The notes below the pieces were generated by a model. That model made no database searches and was not told the origin of the DNA. It worked only from the letters and a program-made list of their open reading frames with translations. The position numbers were made by a program, and so were the translations under genes. DNA of 64,000 nucleotides, taken from contig NZ_CP060007.1 in the NCBI RefSeq assembly GCF_014168535.1, forward strand, positions 2,356,001 through 2,420,000, written 5' to 3'. Position 1 is the stretch's first letter; the number at the start of each line of letters is the position of its first letter. Of this stretch, positions 33,794 to 64,000 are shown in pieces. This DNA is from Lacibacter sediminis (GTDB taxonomy: Bacteria > Bacteroidota > Bacteroidia > Chitinophagales > Chitinophagaceae).

Positions 33794-36793
33794 ATGACAA
33801 GAGAAAACCTCCGGGTTCTCTTTGCATTTGTGATTGGTCTGTTCTCCGTTGCCTTTGTGCAGGCACAAACAGTAACGGGGAAGATCACATCACAAACAGG
33901 AGAGCCGCAACCTTTTGCTACTGTTCAGGTAAAAGGCACACAAACCATCACCACTGCTGACGCACAAGGAAATTTTTCAATCAAAGCAAAACAAGGCGAT
34001 GTGCTTATTTTCACAAGTACTTCTTTTGAACGTAAAGAAGTGCCTGTTGATGGCGCAGTGATGAATGTAACTGTAACCGCTACGGTTAACGCATTAAAAG
34101 AAGTGGTGGTAACGGGTTACACCACACGTTCAAAACGTTCTAACATTGGTTCAGCCTCAACGGTTGTGATCGACGACATCCGCACACAACCCATTGCATC
34201 ATTCGATCAGATTTTACAAGGACAGGCGCCTGGATTGAATGTAAAAACAGGTTCGGGTCAACCCGGTCGTAATGCGGATGTGATCATTCGTGGACGTACA
34301 TCTGTAAATGGTTCTGTTGATCCATTGTATATCGTTGATGGGGTAGAAGTAAGAGCCGGTGATTTCAGCACTATGAACCAAGGCGATTTTGAAAGTGTAT
34401 CTGTATTAAAAGATGCTGCATCAACAGCTATCTATGGTTCACGTGGTGCAAATGGCGTGATCGTTGTTACTACCAAAAAAGGTAAAAGTGGTAAAGTCCG
34501 TTTTGCCTATGACGGTCAGATAGGTGTTTCAACATTGCCAGAGAACAAGTTGAAACTGATGAACACGCAGGAGAAACTTGATTTTGAAATGAACATTGCA
34601 GGTAATCCATGGGGTTGGTCGCCTGCAGAAGTTGCTGAATTCCGCAATGTAAATACAGATTGGAACGATGCTGTTTTCCGTGATGGCAAAATGCAATCGC
34701 ACCAGGTAAGTGCAAGCGGTGGTAATGAGAAAACAACGTTTTACACATCGTTCAATTATTTCGATCAGGAGGGTGTAACCATTAACACTGGTTTAAAACG
34801 TTATAACGGACGTTTAAATCTTTCACACGCAGAACGTAATATTAAGTTTGGTGTAAACTTAGCCGGCGGTTGGTCTAAATTCAGAGGAACATTTGAAGGT
34901 GATCAAAGTATTGGTTCACCGTTGAACACCGTTATCTGGGCATTGCCTTATGAGAAAGTGTACAATGATGATGGTACTTATGCCGGTTCGGTACAATTCC
35001 CGTTCTGGTTAAACCCGGTTGAAGAATTGGTTGTAAATGGCGACAACAGCTGGCAATTAAAATCAACAGGTAATGTGTTTGTGGAATACAATATTCCATG
35101 GATCAAAAATCTTACTTATCGCTTAAATGCCGGTGGTGATTATTCTCAAACCGAAGCATTTGGTATTACAAAGAATGGCACACAATCGGCTCAGCAAAAT
35201 GCAGCATTCGGAAGTGCATTTGCAGGAGAAGGCGCATTGGCAAGAAGTCTTGATCGTCGTTTCCGTTCAACGATCACCAATAGTCTTACTTATAAAACAA
35301 CCTTTGGCGCAAATGATGATCATGAGTTAACTACTTCTTTATATACTGAGTATATCAGACGCAGAGGTCGCAGCTTTAATTTTACAGGTTATGGTTTATT
35401 GCTGCCGTTTGATAATGAAGCAGGTCTTGTTACAGGTACTGCTGCCAATGGGTATATTCCTGTAGTTGGTGGTGGTTTTCCTGAAAACAGTTCATTGCTT
35501 TCTTATTTCGGTACAGCAGATTATTCTTTCCGTAACAAGTACTTCCTTTCACTTTCCGGAAGAACAGATGGGTCATCACGTTTAAGTCCTGCAAATCGTT
35601 GGACACAGTATGGTTCAGTTGGCGCAGGTTGGATCATTTCAGAGGAGAAATTCTTTAATGTAAATGCGATCAATTACCTCAAGTTAAGAGCAAGTTTTGG
35701 AGCTGTTGGTAATCAAAATGGTATTGGTGAGTTCCCATATATACAACAATACGGACGTGGTACTTATGGCGGACAAGGAACATTAAGTATCAATAGTCTT
35801 GGGAATTCTGAACTTACCTGGGAAAAGAGAAGAACTGCAAACGTTGGTGTTGAAATGGAATTCTTTAAAAGCCGTATCAGAACATCTGTTGAATACTATA
35901 ACAGCTTAACAACAGGTTTATATTTCCAACCTACTGTACCTGGAACAAGCGGTGGTAACGGTACTATTCTTGCAAACAATGGTAGTATGGAGAACCAGGG
36001 TATTGAAGTAAATCTTTCGGTGAAAGTGATAAATGCAAAAGATTTTAAATGGATCATTGATGCAAACTATGCATACAATAAGAATACCATCAAATCATTG
36101 CCAGATAATCAAACCTTCCAATTGTTCAAGAGTTTTCAGGCATTGCAGGTGGGTAAACCTTTGAACAGTTTTTATCTCGTTCAATATGCAGGTGTAAATC
36201 CTGCCAATGGTAATTCACAATACCTGAAAGCTGACGGAAAAACCATCACAGAAGATTATGATGCAAATGATCTTACTGTATTAGGAGGAAGCGATGCGCC
36301 TCATAACGGAGGTCTTACAAATACATTCAACTTTAAAGGCTTGGAGCTTTCTGCCTTCTTTGTTTATTCACAAGGTAACTATGTGTATAACAATGCACGC
36401 TATAATGTTGAGTATTATGCATACACTACATCAGGTTTTGCACGCAGTGGTTTAACTGCATGGACAACTCCCGGTCAGCAAACAAACTTCCCTCGTATTG
36501 ATGAAGCTACACAAGGACAAACAACACGTTTCCTGGAAAAAGGAGATTTCCTTCGTTTGCGTAATGTGATGCTTTCTTATTCACTACCAAGAAGTGTAAC
36601 AGAAAAACTGAAGATACAGGGCTTGCGTGTGTTTGTACAAGGCCAGAATCTTTACACATGGCACAAGTTCCAGGGATGGGACCCGGAAGTATCAACTATT
36701 GTTAACTCCGATGCTAATTCCAATGCTGCGGTAAGTGGTGCGCAATATCCATCCTTACGTAGTGTAAACTTTGGTTTGAATTTAAATTTTTAA
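33794..36793 (+). CDS. SusC/RagA-family TonB-dependent transporter
   Basis: 999 aa. Signal peptide (LFAFVIGLFSVAFVQAQ), then a carboxypeptidase-regulatory-like domain (about 24-100, VTGKITSQTGEPQPFATVQV), a plug domain (about 115-225, including VVVTGYTTRSKRS and DAASTAIYGSRGANGVIVV), and a large C-terminal outer-membrane barrel ending in NFGLNLNF. With the SusD partner encoded next door it should import an oligomer across the outer membrane, driven by TonB. The substrate is unknown: no glycosidase, protease or anti-sigma gene adjoins the pair. Confidence 0.95.
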   Translation: MTRENLRVLFAFVIGLFSVAFVQAQTVTGKITSQTGEPQPFATVQVKGTQTITTADAQGNFSIKAKQGDVLIFTSTSFERKEVPVDGAVMNVTVTATVNALKEVVVTGYTTRSKRSNIGSASTVVIDDIRTQPIASFDQILQGQAPGLNVKTGSGQPGRNADVIIRGRTSVNGSVDPLYIVDGVEVRAGDFSTMNQGDFESVSVLKDAASTAIYGSRGANGVIVVTTKKGKSGKVRFAYDGQIGVSTLPENKLKLMNTQEKLDFEMNIAGNPWGWSPAEVAEFRNVNTDWNDAVFRDGKMQSHQVSASGGNEKTTFYTSFNYFDQEGVTINTGLKRYNGRLNLSHAERNIKFGVNLAGGWSKFRGTFEGDQSIGSPLNTVIWALPYEKVYNDDGTYAGSVQFPFWLNPVEELVVNGDNSWQLKSTGNVFVEYNIPWIKNLTYRLNAGGDYSQTEAFGITKNGTQSAQQNAAFGSAFAGEGALARSLDRRFRSTITNSLTYKTTFGANDDHELTTSLYTEYIRRRGRSFNFTGYGLLLPFDNEAGLVTGTAANGYIPVVGGGFPENSSLLSYFGTADYSFRNKYFLSLSGRTDGSSRLSPANRWTQYGSVGAGWIISEEKFFNVNAINYLKLRASFGAVGNQNGIGEFPYIQQYGRGTYGGQGTLSINSLGNSELTWEKRRTANVGVEMEFFKSRIRTSVEYYNSLTTGLYFQPTVPGTSGGNGTILANNGSMENQGIEVNLSVKVINAKDFKWIIDANYAYNKNTIKSLPDNQTFQLFKSFQALQVGKPLNSFYLVQYAGVNPANGNSQYLKADGKTITEDYDANDLTVLGGSDAPHNGGLTNTFNFKGLELSAFFVYSQGNYVYNNARYNVEYYAYTTSGFARSGLTAWTTPGQQTNFPRIDEATQGQTTRFLEKGDFLRLRNVMLSYSLPRSVTEKLKIQGLRVFVQGQNLYTWHKFQGWDPEVSTIVNSDANSNAAVSGAQYPSLRSVNFGLNLNF

Positions 36794-48538: not shown

Positions 48539-49252
48539 TTAAATGTCGGGGTGAAACATATTCTTTGAAAGATTATGATGCTCTTTAATGGCTTTCTTTG
48601 AAAGCCATACTGCAAAGATGAAGGAAGCAACTGCACCAACAAACAGCAAACTATCACTCAGGTATTTGTTTACCGTTGGATTGCCTTGCAGGAACAAAAA
48701 GAAATCGTATGTTCCATGAAAGAATGCGGCCCAGAAAATCCCCGTGAATAAATAAAACTTTCGTCGTTCAGGTTTAAATTTTGCTTTGCCTGCAAAATAA
48801 CCCATGAGAACTGCAAAAGTTGCGTGGGCAGGTACACTTAAAAACATCCTCAGAATAGCTGTGCCTAAACCATGTTGCTGCACGTATAAAATATTCTCAA
48901 CTGTAGCAAAGCCCATCCCGATCATGACACTGTACACAATGCCATCAAAGGGTTCGTCAAAACTTTTCCTGGGATAAGCATAAGAACGAAGCATAATGTA
49001 TTTACTCCATTCTTCGCTCAGCCCGACAATGAGGTATGCAAATACTGCTGTATATAAAATTCCTTCGCCCATCAACCTTTCAACAGGTTTTACCGTTAGT
49101 AGTTGAATGATAATTGCAGGGATGATACTGAGGCAGCCCAGCAGAAAACATACAAGCAGGTTGAGATGCGGCTCACGGTTAAACCGGTCTTTCAGAAAAA
49201 TATAAAGACTGATAGCAATACCGGGTGCAATGGAAAGGGCGAGCAGGAGCAT
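48539..49252 (-). CDS. PrsW-family intramembrane metalloprotease
   Basis: 237 aa, polytopic (about seven membrane segments). The family motifs are visible: SEEWSKY (EExxK), FATVEN (FxxxEN), and two His-containing helices, PAHATFA and FFHGTYD. In Bacillus PrsW starts cleavage of an anti-sigma factor; other members have unknown targets. No sigma or anti-sigma gene is adjacent here. Transcription proceeds toward the three-helix protein gene. Confidence 0.88.
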   Translation of the reverse strand: MLLLALSIAPGIAISLYIFLKDRFNREPHLNLLVCFLLGCLSIIPAIIIQLLTVKPVERLMGEGILYTAVFAYLIVGLSEEWSKYIMLRSYAYPRKSFDEPFDGIVYSVMIGMGFATVENILYVQQHGLGTAILRMFLSVPAHATFAVLMGYFAGKAKFKPERRKFYLFTGIFWAAFFHGTYDFFLFLQGNPTVNKYLSDSLLFVGAVASFIFAVWLSKKAIKEHHNLSKNMFHPDI

Positions 49253-49321: not shown

Positions 49322-52147
49322 ATGAATCGGAAATCTTTTAGCACAACGATTGTATTTTTTGTTTTATCGATTTGCCAGTTAAATGCCCAGCGTTTTGGTG
49401 GTAATCCATCTTCACTTAAATTTTACCAGTTGAATACAGATACGGTGCGTATCATCTTTCCAAAAGGACTGGAAAAGCAGGCGAGGGAAGCAGCCTGGCT
49501 ATCGCATCAGTTGGTGCGTGATTCCTTCTCTTCATCACTTGGAAATAAACTGCGGAAGTTTAATGTAGTGCTGCAAAACCAAACCACAACATCCAATGCA
49601 TATGTTGGTCCGGCTCCATGGCGCAGCGAATTTTATATGATGCCCGATCTTACTAATCTTGGCAGCGGTGCAGTTCCCTGGCACCAGTATCTTTCATTGC
49701 ATGAGTTCAGACATATTGAACAGTTCTCCAACTTCAATCGAACGATTCCGAAAATCGCAGGTTTCTTTTTTGGTCAGGAAGGGCAGGCTGTTGCTATGAA
49801 CCTTGCTGTGCCCGATTGGTTTTGGGAAGGCGATGCAGTATGGCAGGAAACTGTGAACAGCAGACAGGGGCGTGGCCGTTTGCCTTCGTTCTTTAACTCT
49901 TACCGTTCACTTTGGCTGGCTGATAAAAATTATTCTTACCAGAAATTACGCAATGGTTCTTATCGTCACTTTGTTCCTAATCATTACGATCTCGGATATC
50001 TCTTGGTGAGTTACGGTCGTGAAAAATACGGCAATGATCTCTGGACAAAAGTGAACAATGATGCACTTGATTTTAAAGGTTTGTTCTATCCTTATCAAAA
50101 AGCAGTGAAGCGACATACAGGTGTTGCCTACAAACAGTTTGTAAACGATGCGTTTGCCTGGTACAAAAATGAAATGAAAACAAAGGAAACATCTGTGTTT
50201 CAATCATTGCAATCGATCAACAAGCCTGTAAAGAACAGTGTGGTGAATTATGATTATCCATTTATTACAGATGATGGAAGTGTGTTGGTGTTGAAATCGG
50301 GTTACAGGCAAATACCAAGATGGGTGCGTATTCATACAAATGGTGAAGAAGAAAAGTTGAGAGTGAAGGATATTGCTGAAGACAGTTATTATTCTTACAG
50401 AGATGGAAGAGTGGTGTACACAGCTTTCAACACGGATGCCCGTTGGGGATGGAAAACTTATTCGGTACTCAAGGTATGGGATACAAGAGTAAATGAAGTA
50501 AAAAAGATCAGCAGCAAAACTAGATTGTTTCAGCCAGATATTTCACCTGATGCAACTACAGTTGTTGCGGTGAATGCAGGAACTGATCAGCAAACAAACC
50601 TCAGGTTAATACAATTAAACGACAGCGGCGCTGTTGATCTGCCGAATCCTAATCAATACGTTTACACCTATCCACGTTTTTCTGCTGATGCTTCTTCAGT
50701 CATCAGTGCTGTTCGAAATGCAGAAGGAAAGATGACATTGCTGCAAACGGATCTGTCATCGAAACAGGAAGAAGTTTTATTTCCCTTCAGCAATGCAATA
50801 CTTTCCTATGTGCAAGTTGCAGGTGATACTGTGTTGTTTACTTCATCACAAAAAGGAACAGATGTATTGTACCTGTATGATGTAAAAAGTAAACAGCTAT
50901 TACGTGCAGCCGATTTGCCCAATGGAAATTACCAGGCAAGTCTTGATACAAAATCGCAAACAATTATCTGGAACACGTTCACTGTTGATGGCAATATGTT
51001 GCTGAAACAAAAGTTAAGTGAAACGAAACTTGTTGAGGAAAAATCAGTGGCCCCATTAAGTGATCTGTATTTCTCTGCTAAAACATTTGCAGCAACTGAC
51101 CTGTTGAAGAATGTCCAATCTCAGCCGGGTGAAGTGCAACGTTATCGTTCAGGCAAAGGGTTGTTGAATATTCACAGCTGGCGGCCATTTGCTCAAGACC
51201 CTGATTATGGTATTACATTCTACAGCCAGAATATCCTGAATACATTCATTGGCGAATATGGATATACCTACAATCGAAATGAAGGTTATAACCAGGTGTC
51301 GGCGGATCTGGTTTATGGAGGTTGGTATCCGCAATTGTCAGTTGGTGCATCGCAAACATGGAACAGAAATTTTGCATTGAACGAGGATACAACGATCACA
51401 TTCAACCAAACAAACCTGAATGCAGGATTTAGTATTCCGCTCAACTTTACGGGAGGTATGACGTATAAGAATCTTACACTCTCTGCTTCCTACAATACCG
51501 AGCGGTTTAATTTTACCGGTATTGCAAAGAATATTTTAAAGGATCAACAATTTAACTATATCAATACAGGTCTTAGTTGGGTAACACAAAGTCAGCAGGC
51601 GAGGCAACAGATATTTCCCAAGTGGGCCAATGTTATATCGTTGCGATACAGGCGAACAACAGATGGTCAGTTAGGTAATCAGTTACAAGGCAATATTGGA
51701 TTTTATGTTCCCGGTTTGTTCCGGAATCACAGCGTTGCATTTTTTGCTACTGGATTTGTACGTGATACCTTACGGGGTTCTGTGTTCAGCAACAACTTTC
51801 CTTTTGCAAGAGGATATGCTGCTTACAACTATCCACGAATGTGGCGTTTCAGCACCAATTATCATTTTCCGATTGCTTATCCTGAATTTGGAATTGGACA
51901 GATGATCTACATCATGCGGGTTAGAGCAAATTTATTTTATGATTATACGGCTGTAAAAAGTTTGCGGACTGGTAATGTGTTTCCGTTTGAATCGATTGGG
52001 GGAGAGTTGTTTTTTGATACACGTTTGTGGAATGTGCAGCCGTTCTCGTTTGGTGTGCGGTACAGTTATTTGCTGAGTGTGGATGATCTTGGATTAAACC
52101 GGAACCCGCATCAGTTTGAATTAGTGTTGCCGTTGGATTTGTTTTAA
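49322..52147 (+). CDS. Gluzincin-like metallopeptidase fused to a propeller and an outer-membrane barrel
   Basis: 941 aa from the ATG at 49322, signal peptide ending near QLNAQ. Residues about 30-270 are a peptidase MA-like domain: HEFRH (127-131) is an HExxH zinc motif and E169 in WFWEGDAVW is the third ligand, as in gluzincins. Residues about 290-590 look like a TolB/DPP6-type propeller (FQPDISPDATTVVAV, YTYPRFSADASSVIS). Residues about 620-941 are beta strands ending in FELVLPLDLF, typical of an outer-membrane barrel. The order implies a peptidase tethered to, or passing through, its own barrel. Substrate unknown; a terminator follows. Confidence 0.82.
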   Translation: MNRKSFSTTIVFFVLSICQLNAQRFGGNPSSLKFYQLNTDTVRIIFPKGLEKQAREAAWLSHQLVRDSFSSSLGNKLRKFNVVLQNQTTTSNAYVGPAPWRSEFYMMPDLTNLGSGAVPWHQYLSLHEFRHIEQFSNFNRTIPKIAGFFFGQEGQAVAMNLAVPDWFWEGDAVWQETVNSRQGRGRLPSFFNSYRSLWLADKNYSYQKLRNGSYRHFVPNHYDLGYLLVSYGREKYGNDLWTKVNNDALDFKGLFYPYQKAVKRHTGVAYKQFVNDAFAWYKNEMKTKETSVFQSLQSINKPVKNSVVNYDYPFITDDGSVLVLKSGYRQIPRWVRIHTNGEEEKLRVKDIAEDSYYSYRDGRVVYTAFNTDARWGWKTYSVLKVWDTRVNEVKKISSKTRLFQPDISPDATTVVAVNAGTDQQTNLRLIQLNDSGAVDLPNPNQYVYTYPRFSADASSVISAVRNAEGKMTLLQTDLSSKQEEVLFPFSNAILSYVQVAGDTVLFTSSQKGTDVLYLYDVKSKQLLRAADLPNGNYQASLDTKSQTIIWNTFTVDGNMLLKQKLSETKLVEEKSVAPLSDLYFSAKTFAATDLLKNVQSQPGEVQRYRSGKGLLNIHSWRPFAQDPDYGITFYSQNILNTFIGEYGYTYNRNEGYNQVSADLVYGGWYPQLSVGASQTWNRNFALNEDTTITFNQTNLNAGFSIPLNFTGGMTYKNLTLSASYNTERFNFTGIAKNILKDQQFNYINTGLSWVTQSQQARQQIFPKWANVISLRYRRTTDGQLGNQLQGNIGFYVPGLFRNHSVAFFATGFVRDTLRGSVFSNNFPFARGYAAYNYPRMWRFSTNYHFPIAYPEFGIGQMIYIMRVRANLFYDYTAVKSLRTGNVFPFESIGGELFFDTRLWNVQPFSFGVRYSYLLSVDDLGLNRNPHQFELVLPLDLF

Positions 52148-52214: not shown

Positions 52215-52685
52215 TTACATCACCTTTATCTTGATTTCCGGTGCAGTATAATAATAACCCCACTTGTCCTTTACTATAATATCTGTGATAATGATCTCGT
52301 CTTCTTTTTTAATGATCTCGTAAAGATTCTTTTGCCAGATTTTTGGTAAATAGCCTGAATTTCTGACGTTGGTAGCAGTTGAATTGTACTTGCTTTTTAT
52401 TTCACCGGTTTTTTCATCTTCATACTTATCCTTGCTGCGATGAACTACAATAAAACGGGATACATGATAACGACTTTTTTTGTCATCGATCACCCATATT
52501 GCAGAATCGATCGTTGTTAAGACCATTTCAAGTGGAAGGTCGCCGCCTTTTGTTTTACCCCAAAAGCTCTGGAGTGGTGGTGGTTTTAAGGTGGTGGGCT
52601 TCGGTTTGTCCTGCGCCTTTGTTTGTACGCTAAAAAACAGCACAAACAATAGCAAGAGTAAACGGAACGGTCTTTTCAGCAACAT
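52215..52685 (-). CDS. Exported protein of unknown function
   Basis: 156 aa with signal peptide ending near VQTKAQ and a Pro-rich mature N-terminus (KPKPTTLKPPPL). The C-terminal strands (IIKKEDEIIITDIIVKD, YYYTAPEIKIKV) resemble the closing strands of the GldM C-terminal domain, but the match is weak. It lies 18 bp downstream of valS and is likely co-transcribed with it. Confidence 0.65.
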   Translation of the reverse strand: MLLKRPFRLLLLLFVLFFSVQTKAQDKPKPTTLKPPPLQSFWGKTKGGDLPLEMVLTTIDSAIWVIDDKKSRYHVSRFIVVHRSKDKYEDEKTGEIKSKYNSTATNVRNSGYLPKIWQKNLYEIIKKEDEIIITDIIVKDKWGYYYTAPEIKIKVM

Positions 52686-59478: not shown

Positions 59479-60060
59479 ATGAAAATTTTAGTATTCGATA
59501 ATTACGACAGCTTTACTTATAACCTTGTTCACCTGGTGGAGAAGATCACACATATAAAAGTGGATGTGCATCGCAACGATCAGATTCCATTAGAGAAGGT
59601 GAAGGACTATGATAAAATTATTTTATCCCCTGGTCCGGGTATCCCTGAAGAAGCGGGATTGTTATTGCCGTTGATCAAAGAATATGCTGCAACAAAATCA
59701 ATTCTTGGTGTTTGTTTAGGTCACCAGGCAATTGGCGAAGCATTCGGTGGAACGTTGACGAATCTTTCAACCGTATTTCATGGAGTAGCAACACCGATTA
59801 AAATCCAAAATCCAAAAAATCCAAAACCCAATGGCGTGTTGAATGGACTTTCAGATACAATTGAAGTCGGTCGCTATCATAGCTGGGTGGTGAATAAAGA
59901 AGGTTTTCCTGTTGATCTTGAAATTACAGCTGAAGATGAAACAGGAATGATCATGGCCTTGCAGCATAAAACATTTGATGTGCAGGGTGTGCAGTTTCAT
60001 CCGGAAAGTGTGTTGACGCCAGTAGGAGAGACAATACTTCGTAATTGGTTGAAGGCTTAA
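59479..60060 (+). CDS. trpG: Anthranilate synthase component II (glutamine amidotransferase)
   Basis: 193 aa from the ATG at 59479, giving the canonical start MKILVFDNYDSFTYNL; an ATG at 59464 is an alternative. Class I amidotransferase triad: Cys in GVCLGHQAIGEAFGG, His and Glu in VQFHPES. It supplies ammonia to TrpE. Residues about 108-117 (KIQNPKNPKP) are encoded by repeated AAAATCC words (59800-59829) like those in intergenic repeats of this window, and appear to be an insertion in a surface loop. It lies 21 bp after trpE. Confidence 0.95.
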   Translation: MKILVFDNYDSFTYNLVHLVEKITHIKVDVHRNDQIPLEKVKDYDKIILSPGPGIPEEAGLLLPLIKEYAATKSILGVCLGHQAIGEAFGGTLTNLSTVFHGVATPIKIQNPKNPKPNGVLNGLSDTIEVGRYHSWVVNKEGFPVDLEITAEDETGMIMALQHKTFDVQGVQFHPESVLTPVGETILRNWLKA

Positions 60061-60091
60061 TTTGAAAATGAGTGAATTTGAAAATTTGAAA

Positions 60092-61084
60092 ATGAAAAAA
60101 ATACTTCAGTTACTGTTTGAACATAAAAGCCTCGATCGTCATCAGGCGAAAGATGTACTGTTGAATATCGGGAAAGGTGTTTACAACGAACATGAGATCA
60201 CTGCTTTCATGACGGTGTATCTTATGCGCAGCATTACCATTGAAGAGCTGCAGGGTTTCCGTGATGCATTGCTGGAGCTTTGTGTGCCGGTTGATCTCAA
60301 TGGACATGCGGTGCTCGATATTGTTGGTACAGGTGGTGATGGAAAAAACACCTTCAACATTTCTACGCTTTCCTGTTTCATTGTGGCAGGTGCCGGACAA
60401 AAAGTTGCCAAGCATGGTAACTACGGCGCATCAACCATCAGTGGTGCAAGTAATGTGATGGAGCAATTGGGTTATAAATTCAAAAACAATGTTGATCAGT
60501 TGAAACGTGAAGTGGAAGAAGCCAATATCTGTTTCATGCATGCACCGATGTTTCATCCTGCATTAAAAACAGTTGGGCCTATCCGTAAGAACCTCGGCAT
60601 GCGTACCTTTTTTAATATGCTTGGGCCAATGGTGAATCCTGCAAGTCCGGCGTATCAACTGGTGGGAGTATTTAGTTTAGAGATGGCAAGGGTCTATAAT
60701 TATTTGTTGCAACAGACAGGTGGTGCATTCACCATCATTCATAGTCTGGATGGATACGATGAAATATCATTGACGAACGATACCAAAGTGATCACAAATA
60801 AAGGTGAATTTATCATGACGCCTGAACAGTTGGGCAAACGCATGGTGCAGCAAACCGATATTCACGGTGGTAACAGTATTGAAGAAGCAGCAAAGATCTT
60901 TACAAAGATTTTGAGTGGTGAAGGAACATGGGCACAAAATGCAGTGGTGATGGCGAATGCAGCAATGGGTTTGTATTGCACCGGTGCTTATAAAACCTAT
61001 GATGATGCGTTTGGAGCTGCAGTAGAAAGCTTAGAAAGCGGAAGAGCAAATGATTGTTTGAAAAAGTTAATTGAATTGCAATAA
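60092..61084 (+). CDS. trpD: Anthranilate phosphoribosyltransferase
   Basis: 330 aa from the ATG at 60092 (MKKILQLLFEHKSL). An in-frame ATG at 60068 would add MSEFENLK, encoded by GAATTTGAAAATTTGAAAATG-like repeat words, so it is probably not the original start. The enzyme joins anthranilate to PRPP. The PRPP loop GTGGDGKNTFNIST, the anthranilate loop KHGNYGASTISGASNV and the MRTFFNMLGPMVNP segment are intact. It follows trpG closely. Confidence 0.95.
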   Translation: MKKILQLLFEHKSLDRHQAKDVLLNIGKGVYNEHEITAFMTVYLMRSITIEELQGFRDALLELCVPVDLNGHAVLDIVGTGGDGKNTFNISTLSCFIVAGAGQKVAKHGNYGASTISGASNVMEQLGYKFKNNVDQLKREVEEANICFMHAPMFHPALKTVGPIRKNLGMRTFFNMLGPMVNPASPAYQLVGVFSLEMARVYNYLLQQTGGAFTIIHSLDGYDEISLTNDTKVITNKGEFIMTPEQLGKRMVQQTDIHGGNSIEEAAKIFTKILSGEGTWAQNAVVMANAAMGLYCTGAYKTYDDAFGAAVESLESGRANDCLKKLIELQ

Positions 61085-61114
61085 GTACCAGGTAGTAAGT
61101 ATTAAGTTATAAGC

Positions 61115-61912
61115 ATGAATATTCTAGATAAAATAATAGCACAGAAACGGATTGAAGTAGAGGAGCGGAAATCAAAGACGAGCGTAGCAGAATTGCAGCA
61201 GCGACCATTGTATGCAAGGCCGGTTCTTTCATTAAAGCAGTTTCTGCTCGATGATTCGAAGACGGGTATTATTGCAGAGTTCAAACGTCAGTCGCCATCA
61301 AAAGGTGTGATAAATGGTGAAGCAGATGTGGTGGATGTAACAACTGCTTACACAAACAATGGAGCATCCTGTTTAAGTGTGCTGACTGATGAAGAGTTCT
61401 TTGGTGGCAGTACAGATGATCTGCTGAAAGCAAGGGTGAATGAAATTCCTGTCTTAAGAAAAGACTTCATCGTTGATGAATACCAAATTACGGAAGCAAA
61501 AGCAATGGGTGCTGATGTAATTTTGCTCATCGCTGCCTGTTTAACGCCTGCAGAAGTGAAACGATTGGCGACATTTGCCAAATCGCTTGGACTGGAAGTG
61601 TTACTGGAACTGCATGCAGAAGAAGAGCTGGAGCATATTTGTGAAGAAACAGAGATCGTTGGTATCAACAACCGTAACCTAAAAACATTTGAAGTGGATA
61701 TTGAACGTAGCTTGCGGATGGCAAAACAGATACCGTCAGATAAAATAAAAGTAGCAGAGAGCGGTATCAGTTCCGTTGAAAATATATTGTTGTTCAAAGC
61801 AAACGGCTTCAGGGGATTTTTGATTGGTGAGAATTTTATGAAAGAAGAAAACCCCGGACAGGCATTTGAACAATTCACACAACAATTAAAAAAGCAGAAG
61901 CATGAATATTAA
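61115..61912 (+). CDS. trpC: Indole-3-glycerol phosphate synthase
   Basis: 265 aa, a TIM barrel that closes the indole ring from CdRP. Landmarks: IIAEFKRQSPSKGVI (catalytic Glu and Lys), VLTDEEFFGGSTDDL, LRKDFIVDEYQI, LLELHAEEEL, VGINNRNLKTFEVD and KVAESGI. The end overlaps trpF by 11 bp, so translation is coupled. The 30-bp gap before it contains AGTACCAGGTAGTAAGT-like repeat words. Confidence 0.96.
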   Translation: MNILDKIIAQKRIEVEERKSKTSVAELQQRPLYARPVLSLKQFLLDDSKTGIIAEFKRQSPSKGVINGEADVVDVTTAYTNNGASCLSVLTDEEFFGGSTDDLLKARVNEIPVLRKDFIVDEYQITEAKAMGADVILLIAACLTPAEVKRLATFAKSLGLEVLLELHAEEELEHICEETEIVGINNRNLKTFEVDIERSLRMAKQIPSDKIKVAESGISSVENILLFKANGFRGFLIGENFMKEENPGQAFEQFTQQLKKQKHEY

Positions 61913-62528
61913 AGTTTGCGGTATTACCCAATTGAAACAGGTACAACAGTTAGAAGGATTGGACATTGATTTTGTCGGGTTTATTTTCGACAAGGATTCT
62001 CCACGTTATGTTGAAGGGAAGTTGGATAAGAAAGAGATCAAGAAAGCGGATTACGACATGAAGAAAGTAGGTGTGTTTGTAAATCCTTCTTACAGTGACA
62101 TCCTTGATGCGATAGAAGATTATGGTTTGGATGTAGTGCAATTGCATGGTGAAGAAACACCTGAGTTTTGTTCTGACCTGAATGAAGATGTGGAAGTGAT
62201 CAAAGTATTTCATATTGATGAATCAGTAAAAGATATTGATGCATTGGTAGCGCCTTATGACGAAGCATGTGATTATTATTTGTTTGATACGAAGAGTGGT
62301 AATCAGAAAGGTGGCACAGGCAAACAATTCGACTGGGCTGTAATTGAAAAAAGCAAAATTGAAAAACCGTTTTTCCTGAGTGGTGGTATCGGTATTGAAG
62401 ATGTAAAACGGATCAAAGCATTCAAGCATCCTGATTTTTATGGCGTGGATATTAACAGCAAAGTGGAGAAAGCACCGGGTGAAAAAGATATGAGTTTAGT
62501 GCTGCAGTTTAAGTTGGGAATGAAATAG
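61902..62528 (+). CDS. trpF: Phosphoribosylanthranilate isomerase, first copy
   Basis: 208 aa. It isomerises PRA to CdRP. The general base Cys is in MNIKVCGIT, the phosphate-binding and active-site Arg in DSPRYV, and the general acid Asp in YYLFDTKSG, followed by GGTGKQFDW and FLSGGIGIEDV. All catalytic positions are present. It overlaps trpC by 11 bp. Confidence 0.95.
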   Translation: MNIKVCGITQLKQVQQLEGLDIDFVGFIFDKDSPRYVEGKLDKKEIKKADYDMKKVGVFVNPSYSDILDAIEDYGLDVVQLHGEETPEFCSDLNEDVEVIKVFHIDESVKDIDALVAPYDEACDYYLFDTKSGNQKGGTGKQFDWAVIEKSKIEKPFFLSGGIGIEDVKRIKAFKHPDFYGVDINSKVEKAPGEKDMSLVLQFKLGMK

Positions 62529-62623
62529 TGAGTTCTGCCGTCTGACGCCCTAGTCTTACGGATTGGAGATGGCCATTCGAAACGATTGCTTTTGTTTACA
62601 ACCAACCCTTTAAAGCAGAGCTT

Positions 62624-63256
62624 ATGAGAATTAAAGTTTGCGGCATGACGGATCTTGCACAAATGCAACAATTGGGCGAGATGGGTGTTGAATTTGCCGG
62701 TATGATCTTTTATCACAAGTCACCAAGGTTTGTGTTGAAACATTTAACCGGTGTGCAGGTGAAACGGGCAAAGCTGAAAGTGTACAAGGTGGGTGTGTTT
62801 GTCAATGCGTCGTATGATGAGATCATTAATCATGTGGAGAATTTCGGGTTGGACATGGTGCAGTTACATGGTGATGAAACACCGAAGTTCTGTGAAAAGG
62901 TGAGTGATTATATTTCGCTGATCAAGGCATTTCGTATCACAGAGGATGATAATATTCCCTGGAAGATCAAAGATTATGTGGAAGCGGTGGATATGTATAT
63001 GTTTGATACGATGGGTGCCGGTTATGGGGGAACAGGAAAGAAGTTTGATTGGAATATGCTGAAGGGATTGACTATCGGTAAACCGTTTTTTTTAAGCGGT
63101 GGCATTGAGCCGACCGATGCAGCAGCCATCAAAGAATTTGTAAAAGAGGAGGTAGCGAAGGATCTCTTTGCATTGGATATGAACAGCAAGTTTGAAACGA
63201 TGCCCGGTGTGAAGGATATGGAATTGGTGAAGAAGTTTGTGGGAGAGTTGAGATGA
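62624..63256 (+). CDS. Phosphoribosylanthranilate isomerase, second copy
   Basis: 210 aa, a clear paralog of the preceding trpF. The key residues are also kept: Cys in MRIKVCGMT, Arg in KSPRFV, Asp in YMFDTMGAG, then GGTGKKFDW and FLSGGIEPTD. The two proteins differ at many other positions, so this is not a recent duplication. The 95-bp gap between them has no promoter I recognise. It may be a back-up isomerase or act on a related Amadori substrate. trpB and trpA do not follow inside the window. Confidence 0.9.
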   Translation: MRIKVCGMTDLAQMQQLGEMGVEFAGMIFYHKSPRFVLKHLTGVQVKRAKLKVYKVGVFVNASYDEIINHVENFGLDMVQLHGDETPKFCEKVSDYISLIKAFRITEDDNIPWKIKDYVEAVDMYMFDTMGAGYGGTGKKFDWNMLKGLTIGKPFFLSGGIEPTDAAAIKEFVKEEVAKDLFALDMNSKFETMPGVKDMELVKKFVGELR

Positions 63257-63344
63257 CAAGGTTGAAACACAGAGATACGGAGGCGCATAGCATGAATCTA
63301 TGTAAACGAAGGTTTTTGGACATCAGCTTTGATAAACAACTATT
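63257..63344. repeat. Word-like sequence after second trpF
   Basis: ACACAGAGATACGGAGGCGC lies at about 63270-63289, resembling the ACACAGAG-type words that recur in intergenic DNA of many bacteria and related words at 31140-31175 and 39690-39720. Confidence 0.4.
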
Positions 63345-64000
63345 ATGAAAAAGACTATTTGTTTGTTGATCTTGTTTTACGCCAATTATGCGGTTGCTCA
63401 ATTAAGAGTCGAAGAGTTGACCAACGATTCTTTGTTGAAACTATTTATTTGTCAGCAAACAGGAAAGCAATATAAGAATGTGCATTTTGTAACTGGAAAG
63501 GAGTTGAAAGAAAAGAAACAGATTGCCGAGAATTCAATATTTGATTCCATACAAAGCATACAAAAAATAACTACTGACTTTAATAATGATGGTAAGTTGG
63601 ATTTGGTTGTTAGTTATGCTGAAAGAATGCTGTTTCAAAAGTATTTCGATGGGTTTAATATCACGGCAATTGTATCTAATCCATCGGGTAATTACGATGT
63701 AAAATATCTTTGGCAACGATATGAGCATTTTATTGGGAGTGTTGTTAGATTGTTGAATGGGGATAATCATTTCATTTTGGCAAGACTTTTCCAAGAAAAA
63801 AGGAAAGAAGTTGTTCGGTTTGATACGCTTAATTATTATCAAGGGGAGTTCGTGAATGTGGGTAGTAAATGTAACAAAGGGTTTGATAGCATTAAGTATT
63901 ACACTTCCTCAAATTGGGTTTCATCGTCGTATCGGTACAGCCATCTTACTTTGTTTGCTAATGGAGTCATTCGAAGGGAAGATTTTGAAATGGGTAAAAA
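63345..64000 (+). CDS. Exported protein of unknown function, 3'-truncated by window edge
   Basis: Translation from the ATG at 63345 is open to the window end (218 complete codons). The start MKKTICLLILFYANYAVAQ is a signal peptide. FNNDGKLDLVVSY, at about residue 80, resembles the DxNxDGxxD calcium-binding motif of FG-GAP/VCBS repeats, which suggests a surface or periplasmic beta-propeller-like protein. No named family recognised. Its presence means trpB and trpA do not directly follow trpF. Confidence 0.75.
   Translation, partial: MKKTICLLILFYANYAVAQLRVEELTNDSLLKLFICQQTGKQYKNVHFVTGKELKEKKQIAENSIFDSIQSIQKITTDFNNDGKLDLVVSYAERMLFQKYFDGFNITAIVSNPSGNYDVKYLWQRYEHFIGSVVRLLNGDNHFILARLFQEKRKEVVRFDTLNYYQGEFVNVGSKCNKGFDSIKYYTSSNWVSSSYRYSHLTLFANGVIRREDFEMGK

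Follow-up and report, generated by a model that had tools for sequence, protein, structure and literature searches.

What is made by a bacterium whose genome appears to place a zinc-peptidase motif, a propeller, and an outer-membrane barrel in one reading frame, and what would such a protein do? The question is raised by an ORF in the stretch of Lacibacter sediminis DNA analyzed here (64,000 nucleotides in full length, hereafter designated as the window), for which an earlier note had proposed a peptidase built into its own outer-membrane anchor. The ORF opens with an ATG at 49322, and an alternative TTG-started frame starts 45 bases earlier. Inspected by eye, its product begins with a hydrophobic stretch followed by NA-Q, and the mature chain has no Cys at its start. 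The gene is single-copy in the genome, and the window belongs to a single contig of 5.12 Mb. In the Pfam scan, none of the three parts of the protein scored above a cut-off, and phmmer found no match to it in the PDB at an E value of 1. The features assigned to the gene are given in Table 1.

Table 1. Coordinates of the gene, its predicted domains, and its motifs in the window, with the evidence for each.
Feature	Position	Strand	Evidence
Coding sequence, 941 aa, stop included	49322..52147	+	ORF listing and translation
Signal-peptide-like start, residues 1-22	49322..49387	+	Translation by eye
Predicted gluzincin-type peptidase domain (N-terminal), residues about 24-296	49391..50209	+	Profile comparison and invariant residues
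HEFRH, residues 127-131, putative two zinc ligands and catalytic Glu	49700..49714	+	Roles inferred from gluzincins
EGDA, residues 169-172, E169 as putative third zinc ligand	49826..49837	+	Conservation; role inferred
TolB-like beta-propeller, residues about 300-592	50219..51097	+	Profile, model, and NCBIfam evidence
Predicted beta-barrel of Omp85 type, residues about 615-941, last residue F941	51164..52144	+	hhalign, model, Foldseek, and VIA-align
RGY, residues 830-832, at the Omp85 loop-6 position	51809..51817	+	Between predicted strands 804-814 and 839-852
FYD, residues 872-874, aligned with Omp85 FxDaG	51935..51943	+	End of predicted strand 861-874

The order of the three parts is seen most directly in distant relatives. 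Peptidase_MA_2 (PF13485) had no match in the genome carrying the window but matched 57 of 99 genomes of the phylum, in 55 of them above the cut-off. We fetched 20 Peptidase_MA_2 regions and aligned 19 frames (alignment A3). In a Pfam scan of A3 at an E value of 0.001, PD40 was found in 19/19 and Omp85 in 7/19, besides Peptidase_MA_2, the selection criterion, in 19/19. Five of the A3 proteins were inspected singly. Two of them, L160 and L148, bear Peptidase_MA_2, PD40, and Omp85 in one protein and in that order, all above the curated cut-offs; for L144, L159, and L163, Pfam made no Omp85 call, and Peptidase_MA_2 in L159 was under the cut-off. When the domains of the window family were compared with those of the A3 relatives by hhalign, mismatched pairs of domains scored at most 0.7%. 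The order of gluzincin, propeller, and barrel put forward in the earlier note is thus supported part by part, above all by the Pfam calls in L160 and L148.

We analyzed the peptidase part with two alignments, namely A2, which contained 34 full-length sequences whose identity to the window protein goes as low as 20%, and a second one of 44. The gluzincin hallmark, HExxH and a downstream Glu, was present in 44/44, and H127, E128, H131, E169 (which sits within WFWEGDAVWQET), G170, A172, and E176 were identical in all 44 full-length homologues, bearing out as more than chance the HEFRH motif and E169 that had been singled out from the ORF beforehand. In A2, H127, E128, R130, H131, E169, G170, D171, and A172 were all invariant. 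H127, E128, H131, E169, G170, and A172 were also invariant in the 19 more distant relatives, albeit this count is partly built in because those relatives were gathered with the Peptidase_MA_2 model.

By hhalign, the peptidase profile of 33 sequences matched the whole N-terminal domains of the A3 relatives at 98.4% with an E value of 8e-15, and the comparison with bare Peptidase_MA_2 stretches (n = 30) gave 62.3% for the 33-sequence set and 97.4% for the 44-row set. The window family shares HExxH and the downstream EG.A with Peptidase_MA_2; on the other hand, the window protein is below the Pfam cut-off of the model, and R130, D171, and G183-R184-G185 are kept in all of the 33 closest members. 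As judged from these comparisons, the window peptidase is a divergent relative of Peptidase_MA_2 rather than a member, the two being related by profile only. The M48 profile (PF01435) left the window gene unmatched and had four matches elsewhere in the genome. Searched against the PDB with E values up to 10, the peptidase profile retrieved collagenase G alone, at a non-significant E value of 0.13. The alignment spans the HExxH and EG.A motifs, with EGDA paired with WFDEGTA of collagenase G, and we regard this match as a hint at most.

Structure prediction had been suggested as a check of the three-domain order. The full-length AlphaFold2 model, computed from five sequences, had a mean pLDDT of 46.3, with the propeller and the strand pattern alone usable. 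Residues 1-220, which cover both HEFRH and E169, were modeled at a pLDDT of about 21-32, and therefore it is conservation and homology that argue for the zinc site. The peptidase part of the model was unusable. The conservation of the motif argues that the enzyme is live, and on these sequence data we consider it very likely that the protein binds zinc and acts as a peptidase.

The repeats that had been described as propeller-type are now assigned to a TolB-like propeller. The A2 profile matched TolB chains in the PDB at E values of 1.4e-18 and weaker over the positions about 400-550, and a TolB entry ranked first in the Foldseek search with the full-length model. The NCBIfam TolB model matched residues 382-556 of the window protein with an E value of 2.9e-8, which is below the curated cut-off of that model. 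The propeller of the window family (n = 44) matched that of the A3 relatives at 99.9% by hhalign. In contrast to this part of the window protein, TolB is a free periplasmic protein. The gap of approximately 22-50 residues between the propeller and the barrel is too short for POTRA and Pfam finds none either; thus, we regard POTRA as absent from the window protein.

The C-terminal part looks like an Omp85-type barrel in both the profile comparisons and the model. Of the three parts it is supported least firmly, and its case is made mainly via relatives, as the direct comparison is weak and the model middling. Neither the window protein nor the A2 profile had a PDB sequence match in this part, and the window protein has no match at the PF01103 cut-off, which we take as a detection limit rather than a structural feature. 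In hhalign, the barrel of the window family matched 17 PF01103 domains from the same bacterial family at 24.1% (33 sequences) or 45.1% (44 sequences) over 60-61 C-terminal columns, against 1.7-2.2 for TonB, 0.2-0.6 for FadL, and 0.1-1.0 for the reversed sequence. The options -glob 0 -nocontxt raised the match of the barrel to Omp85 to 85.5% and gave 98.1% for the peptidase, but the plain runs, in which the direct barrel match is lower, are preferred here. The same barrel matched that of the A3 relatives at 75.7% (33 sequences) or 95.5% (44 sequences), and the barrel of the A3 relatives in turn matched the 17 PF01103 domains at 98.0% over 148 columns (0.3 for TonB barrels and 0.8 for FadL).

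The model of residues 596-941, computed from the same five sources, had a pLDDT of 65.2 and a pTM of 0.56 and displayed 17 strand segments; without a segment of only four residues close to the start, the number is 16. Omp85 barrels have 16 strands and bear an RG[YF] motif in loop 6, between strands 11 and 12. In the 16-segment count, RGY 830-832 lies between strands 11 and 12 and FYD 872-874 ends strand 13, which are presumably the positions where the Omp85 signature motifs occur. The loop-6 motif is partly kept across the family (R830 in 26/44 and G831 in 42/44), and the last residue is F in 23/44. Foldseek returned 77 matches to this model at E values up to 0.001, and the best 50 of the 77 were all BamA or BAM, TamA, FhaC, CdiB, or SAM entries (the chain within the SAM complexes being unnamed), with TM-scores between 0.38 and 0.56 and an rmsd of more than 7 Å. 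In VIA-align, BamA of F. johnsoniae came top with a Z of 18.0 (277 residues at 4.1 Å), but a TonB receptor came next with 17.4, so that this Z cannot tell the barrel classes (Omp85, TonB, and AlgE) apart. The outer-membrane barrel expected from the sequence can be named more precisely as one of Omp85 type. Separately, the genome has five PF01103 matches (L222-L225), of which L222 is a protein of 370 aa in which Pfam finds an Omp85 barrel alone. Elsewhere in the window, a TonB-dependent receptor barrel was matched at 35039-36457 (E 1.7e-9) within the ORF 33794-36793.

The family is widely but unevenly distributed. Among named genomes, four loci with relatives of the window protein were detected, with identities in the best segment of 73% (a Chitinophagaceae MAG), 69 and 68% (two Lacibacter species), and 58% (a second Chitinophagaceae MAG). 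BLAST with the window protein found a match in 66 of the 296 genomes drawn evenly across the phylum; the gene was carried, in one copy each, by 9 of the 11 listed genomes of the same bacterial family as the window, but none of the genomes searched from another family (f5), at least 11 in number, gave a match. Thus, the gene is not essential to the phylum. The profile built from the N-terminal domains of the 33 close members reached 160/296 genomes at an E value of 1e-5. This count is of the peptidase profile alone, and the frames among the matches listed were of 933-1282 aa throughout, long enough for all three parts. The design had been thought uncommon, which is at odds with this spread of relatives of the peptidase part over the phylum. 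In a tree of the peptidase domain with 63 rows, the 33 close members occupied one side of a branch with a support of 96/96. No relatives of the window protein were found in the viral contigs searched or on the plasmids searched. Altogether, we conclude that the three-part family is real and widespread.

The gene itself seems to stand alone. A gene for a PrsW-family intramembrane metalloprotease (48539-49252, minus strand; PF13367, 8.8e-38) lies 69 bases upstream in divergent orientation, and its cluster was near the target gene at 3 of the 44 loci. No conserved neighbor was found across the 44 clustered target loci: the most frequent one, ValS as judged by eye, occurred in 8 of the 44 fetched stretches, the next two in 5 each, and the others in 4 at most. 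We therefore rejected gene neighborhood as a pointer to function or pathway. The scan for promoters and terminators gave no more sites than were found in shuffles. On the other side of the gene, an ORF of 156 aa (52215-52685, minus strand) begins, as judged by eye, like a signal peptide and was unmatched by Pfam at 0.01, and its cluster also adjoins the target in one Lacibacter locus (L004). The GC skew reached up to 0.275 over the window positions 60001-64000, the next highest value in the window being 0.110.

Does this layout correspond to a known kind of protein? Heinz and Lithgow (2014) defined ten Omp85/TpsB subfamilies, one of which, WD40-Omp85, has TolB as the nearest propeller and was likened to a BamA-BamB fusion (PMC4104836). 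As in the window protein, a TolB-like propeller precedes the Omp85 barrel there without POTRA; in contrast, no peptidase is named for that subfamily and the word peptidase is absent from the main text of the paper, whereas a gluzincin precedes the propeller in the window protein. The layout of the window protein fits that of WD40-Omp85, and the two sets may be identical. The same paper defined "Omp85-metalloproteases" on PF00149, and this label was repeated in two papers in 2024 (PMC11116518, PMC11014939). In Pfam naming, PF00149 is a calcineurin-like phosphoesterase, and all three of the proteins of this layout that we scanned (L219:3093-6488, L220:2415-6041, and L221:2236-5913) had PF00149 and PF01103. 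That subfamily thus resembles the window protein in having an N-terminal enzyme and an Omp85 barrel, but the enzyme is a phosphoesterase instead of a peptidase.

The PlpD-type patatin-Omp85 proteins likewise have an enzyme domain ahead of the barrel, but PlpD is a lipase with POTRA and no propeller is named in the account consulted (PMC11116518); its enzyme domain was placed in the periplasm by protease and crosslinking tests (PMC11116518). BepA, LoiP, and YcaL are zinc metalloproteases tied to outer-membrane protein biogenesis (PMC13067283) but are separate M48 proteins without a barrel. In the literature searched, supplements, preprints, and subscription journals excepted, no description of a gluzincin in an Omp85 protein was found, including in the accessible text of PMC12419801, and no function of the three-part family turned up. 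Thus, the peptidase is, in that literature, an unnoted part of an otherwise known kind of protein, and it may be noted elsewhere.

The three-part anatomy is established, the barrel less firmly than the other parts. The N-terminal part of Omp85 proteins hangs in the periplasm. As this holds for the enzyme domain of PlpD as well, the peptidase and the propeller of the window protein would lie beneath the barrel, and we consider the periplasmic side highly probable for the peptidase by analogy. Taken as a whole, the data are explained best, and rather probably, by an outer-membrane-anchored zinc metallopeptidase that cuts polypeptides at the membrane. The protein would be exported by Sec, and BAM would fold its C-terminal barrel into the outer membrane, while the gluzincin and the TolB-like propeller would remain on the periplasmic side directly beneath it, at the place of the POTRA domains of BamA. 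The propeller would hold or gate a polypeptide, and the peptidase would cleave it at the membrane. The purpose could be the removal of proteins that stall while entering or crossing the membrane, or else the maturation of an envelope protein. That the clients are outer-membrane or secreted proteins is a tentative suggestion, somewhat short of probable. We thus favor roles in the quality control of outer-membrane proteins or the maturation of exported proteins, with the barrel as a mere anchor close behind. The four M48 matches in the genome, which are possible quality-control enzymes, count against this explanation; the window gene is not necessarily the one that takes the place of BepA.

The barrel as an anchor only, holding a housekeeping peptidase on the periplasmic face with substrates unrelated to outer-membrane assembly, is a possibility to be taken seriously though we lean against it. 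It shares the anatomy and the side with the explanation favored above, so that the likelihoods of the two overlap. It fits the lack of a conserved partner around the 44 loci, and the words metallo, peptidase, and zinc are absent from the accessible text of the paper on the Bacteroidota BAM structure (PMC12578637). However, until PlpD, every characterized Omp85 protein was one that acts on proteins (PMC11116518), and the loop-6 motif, partly kept as described above, speaks against a mere anchor.

A placement on the other side of the membrane is improbable in our view. The barrel would then act as an autotransporter-like translocator that delivers the peptidase and the propeller to the cell surface for the digestion of external protein. 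Collagenase is a secreted enzyme, and the sole PDB match of the peptidase profile, non-significant as it is, would agree with such a role. PlpD was long believed to work in this way (PMC11116518, PMC4104836), but its enzyme domain proved solely periplasmic and its homologue FplA was undetected at the surface (PMC11116518). Furthermore, a folded peptidase of approximately 270 residues together with a propeller appears large for such a pore. We give even less credence to a peptidase domain that has lost its cleaving activity and now binds peptides on behalf of an Omp85 foldase or translocator. No Pfam peptidase model matches the window protein and its activity is so far predicted; nevertheless, HExxH, the downstream Glu, and their neighbors are invariant in 44/44, and dead domains usually lose such catalytic residues. 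Finally, that the three-part reading is an artefact, produced by the general similarity of barrels and of propellers to one another, is hardly credible, as the barrel evidence of the window protein is weak when taken alone but the TonB, FadL, and reversed-sequence controls score at most 2.2% and L160 and L148, with all three Pfam calls above the cut-offs, largely refute it.

We return to the outer-membrane-anchored metallopeptidase as the preferred explanation. A bolder extension of it, which we hold to be rather unlikely, is that the entire WD40-Omp85 subfamily consists of zinc proteases integral to the outer membrane, forming one family across the phylum. One chain would then unite a barrel machine, a client holder like BamB or TolB, and a protease like BepA, so that a polypeptide could be gripped and cut at the membrane, and surveillance or maturation would be built into the Omp85 machine. 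Omp85 proteins build or cross the outer membrane. If true, a protease built into one Omp85 branch would couple assembly or export with cleavage in a new way, in a branch common in a large phylum. The map of the superfamily would also need to be corrected: the "metalloprotease" subfamily of 2014 bears a phosphoesterase domain, and the peptidase belongs to the propeller branch.
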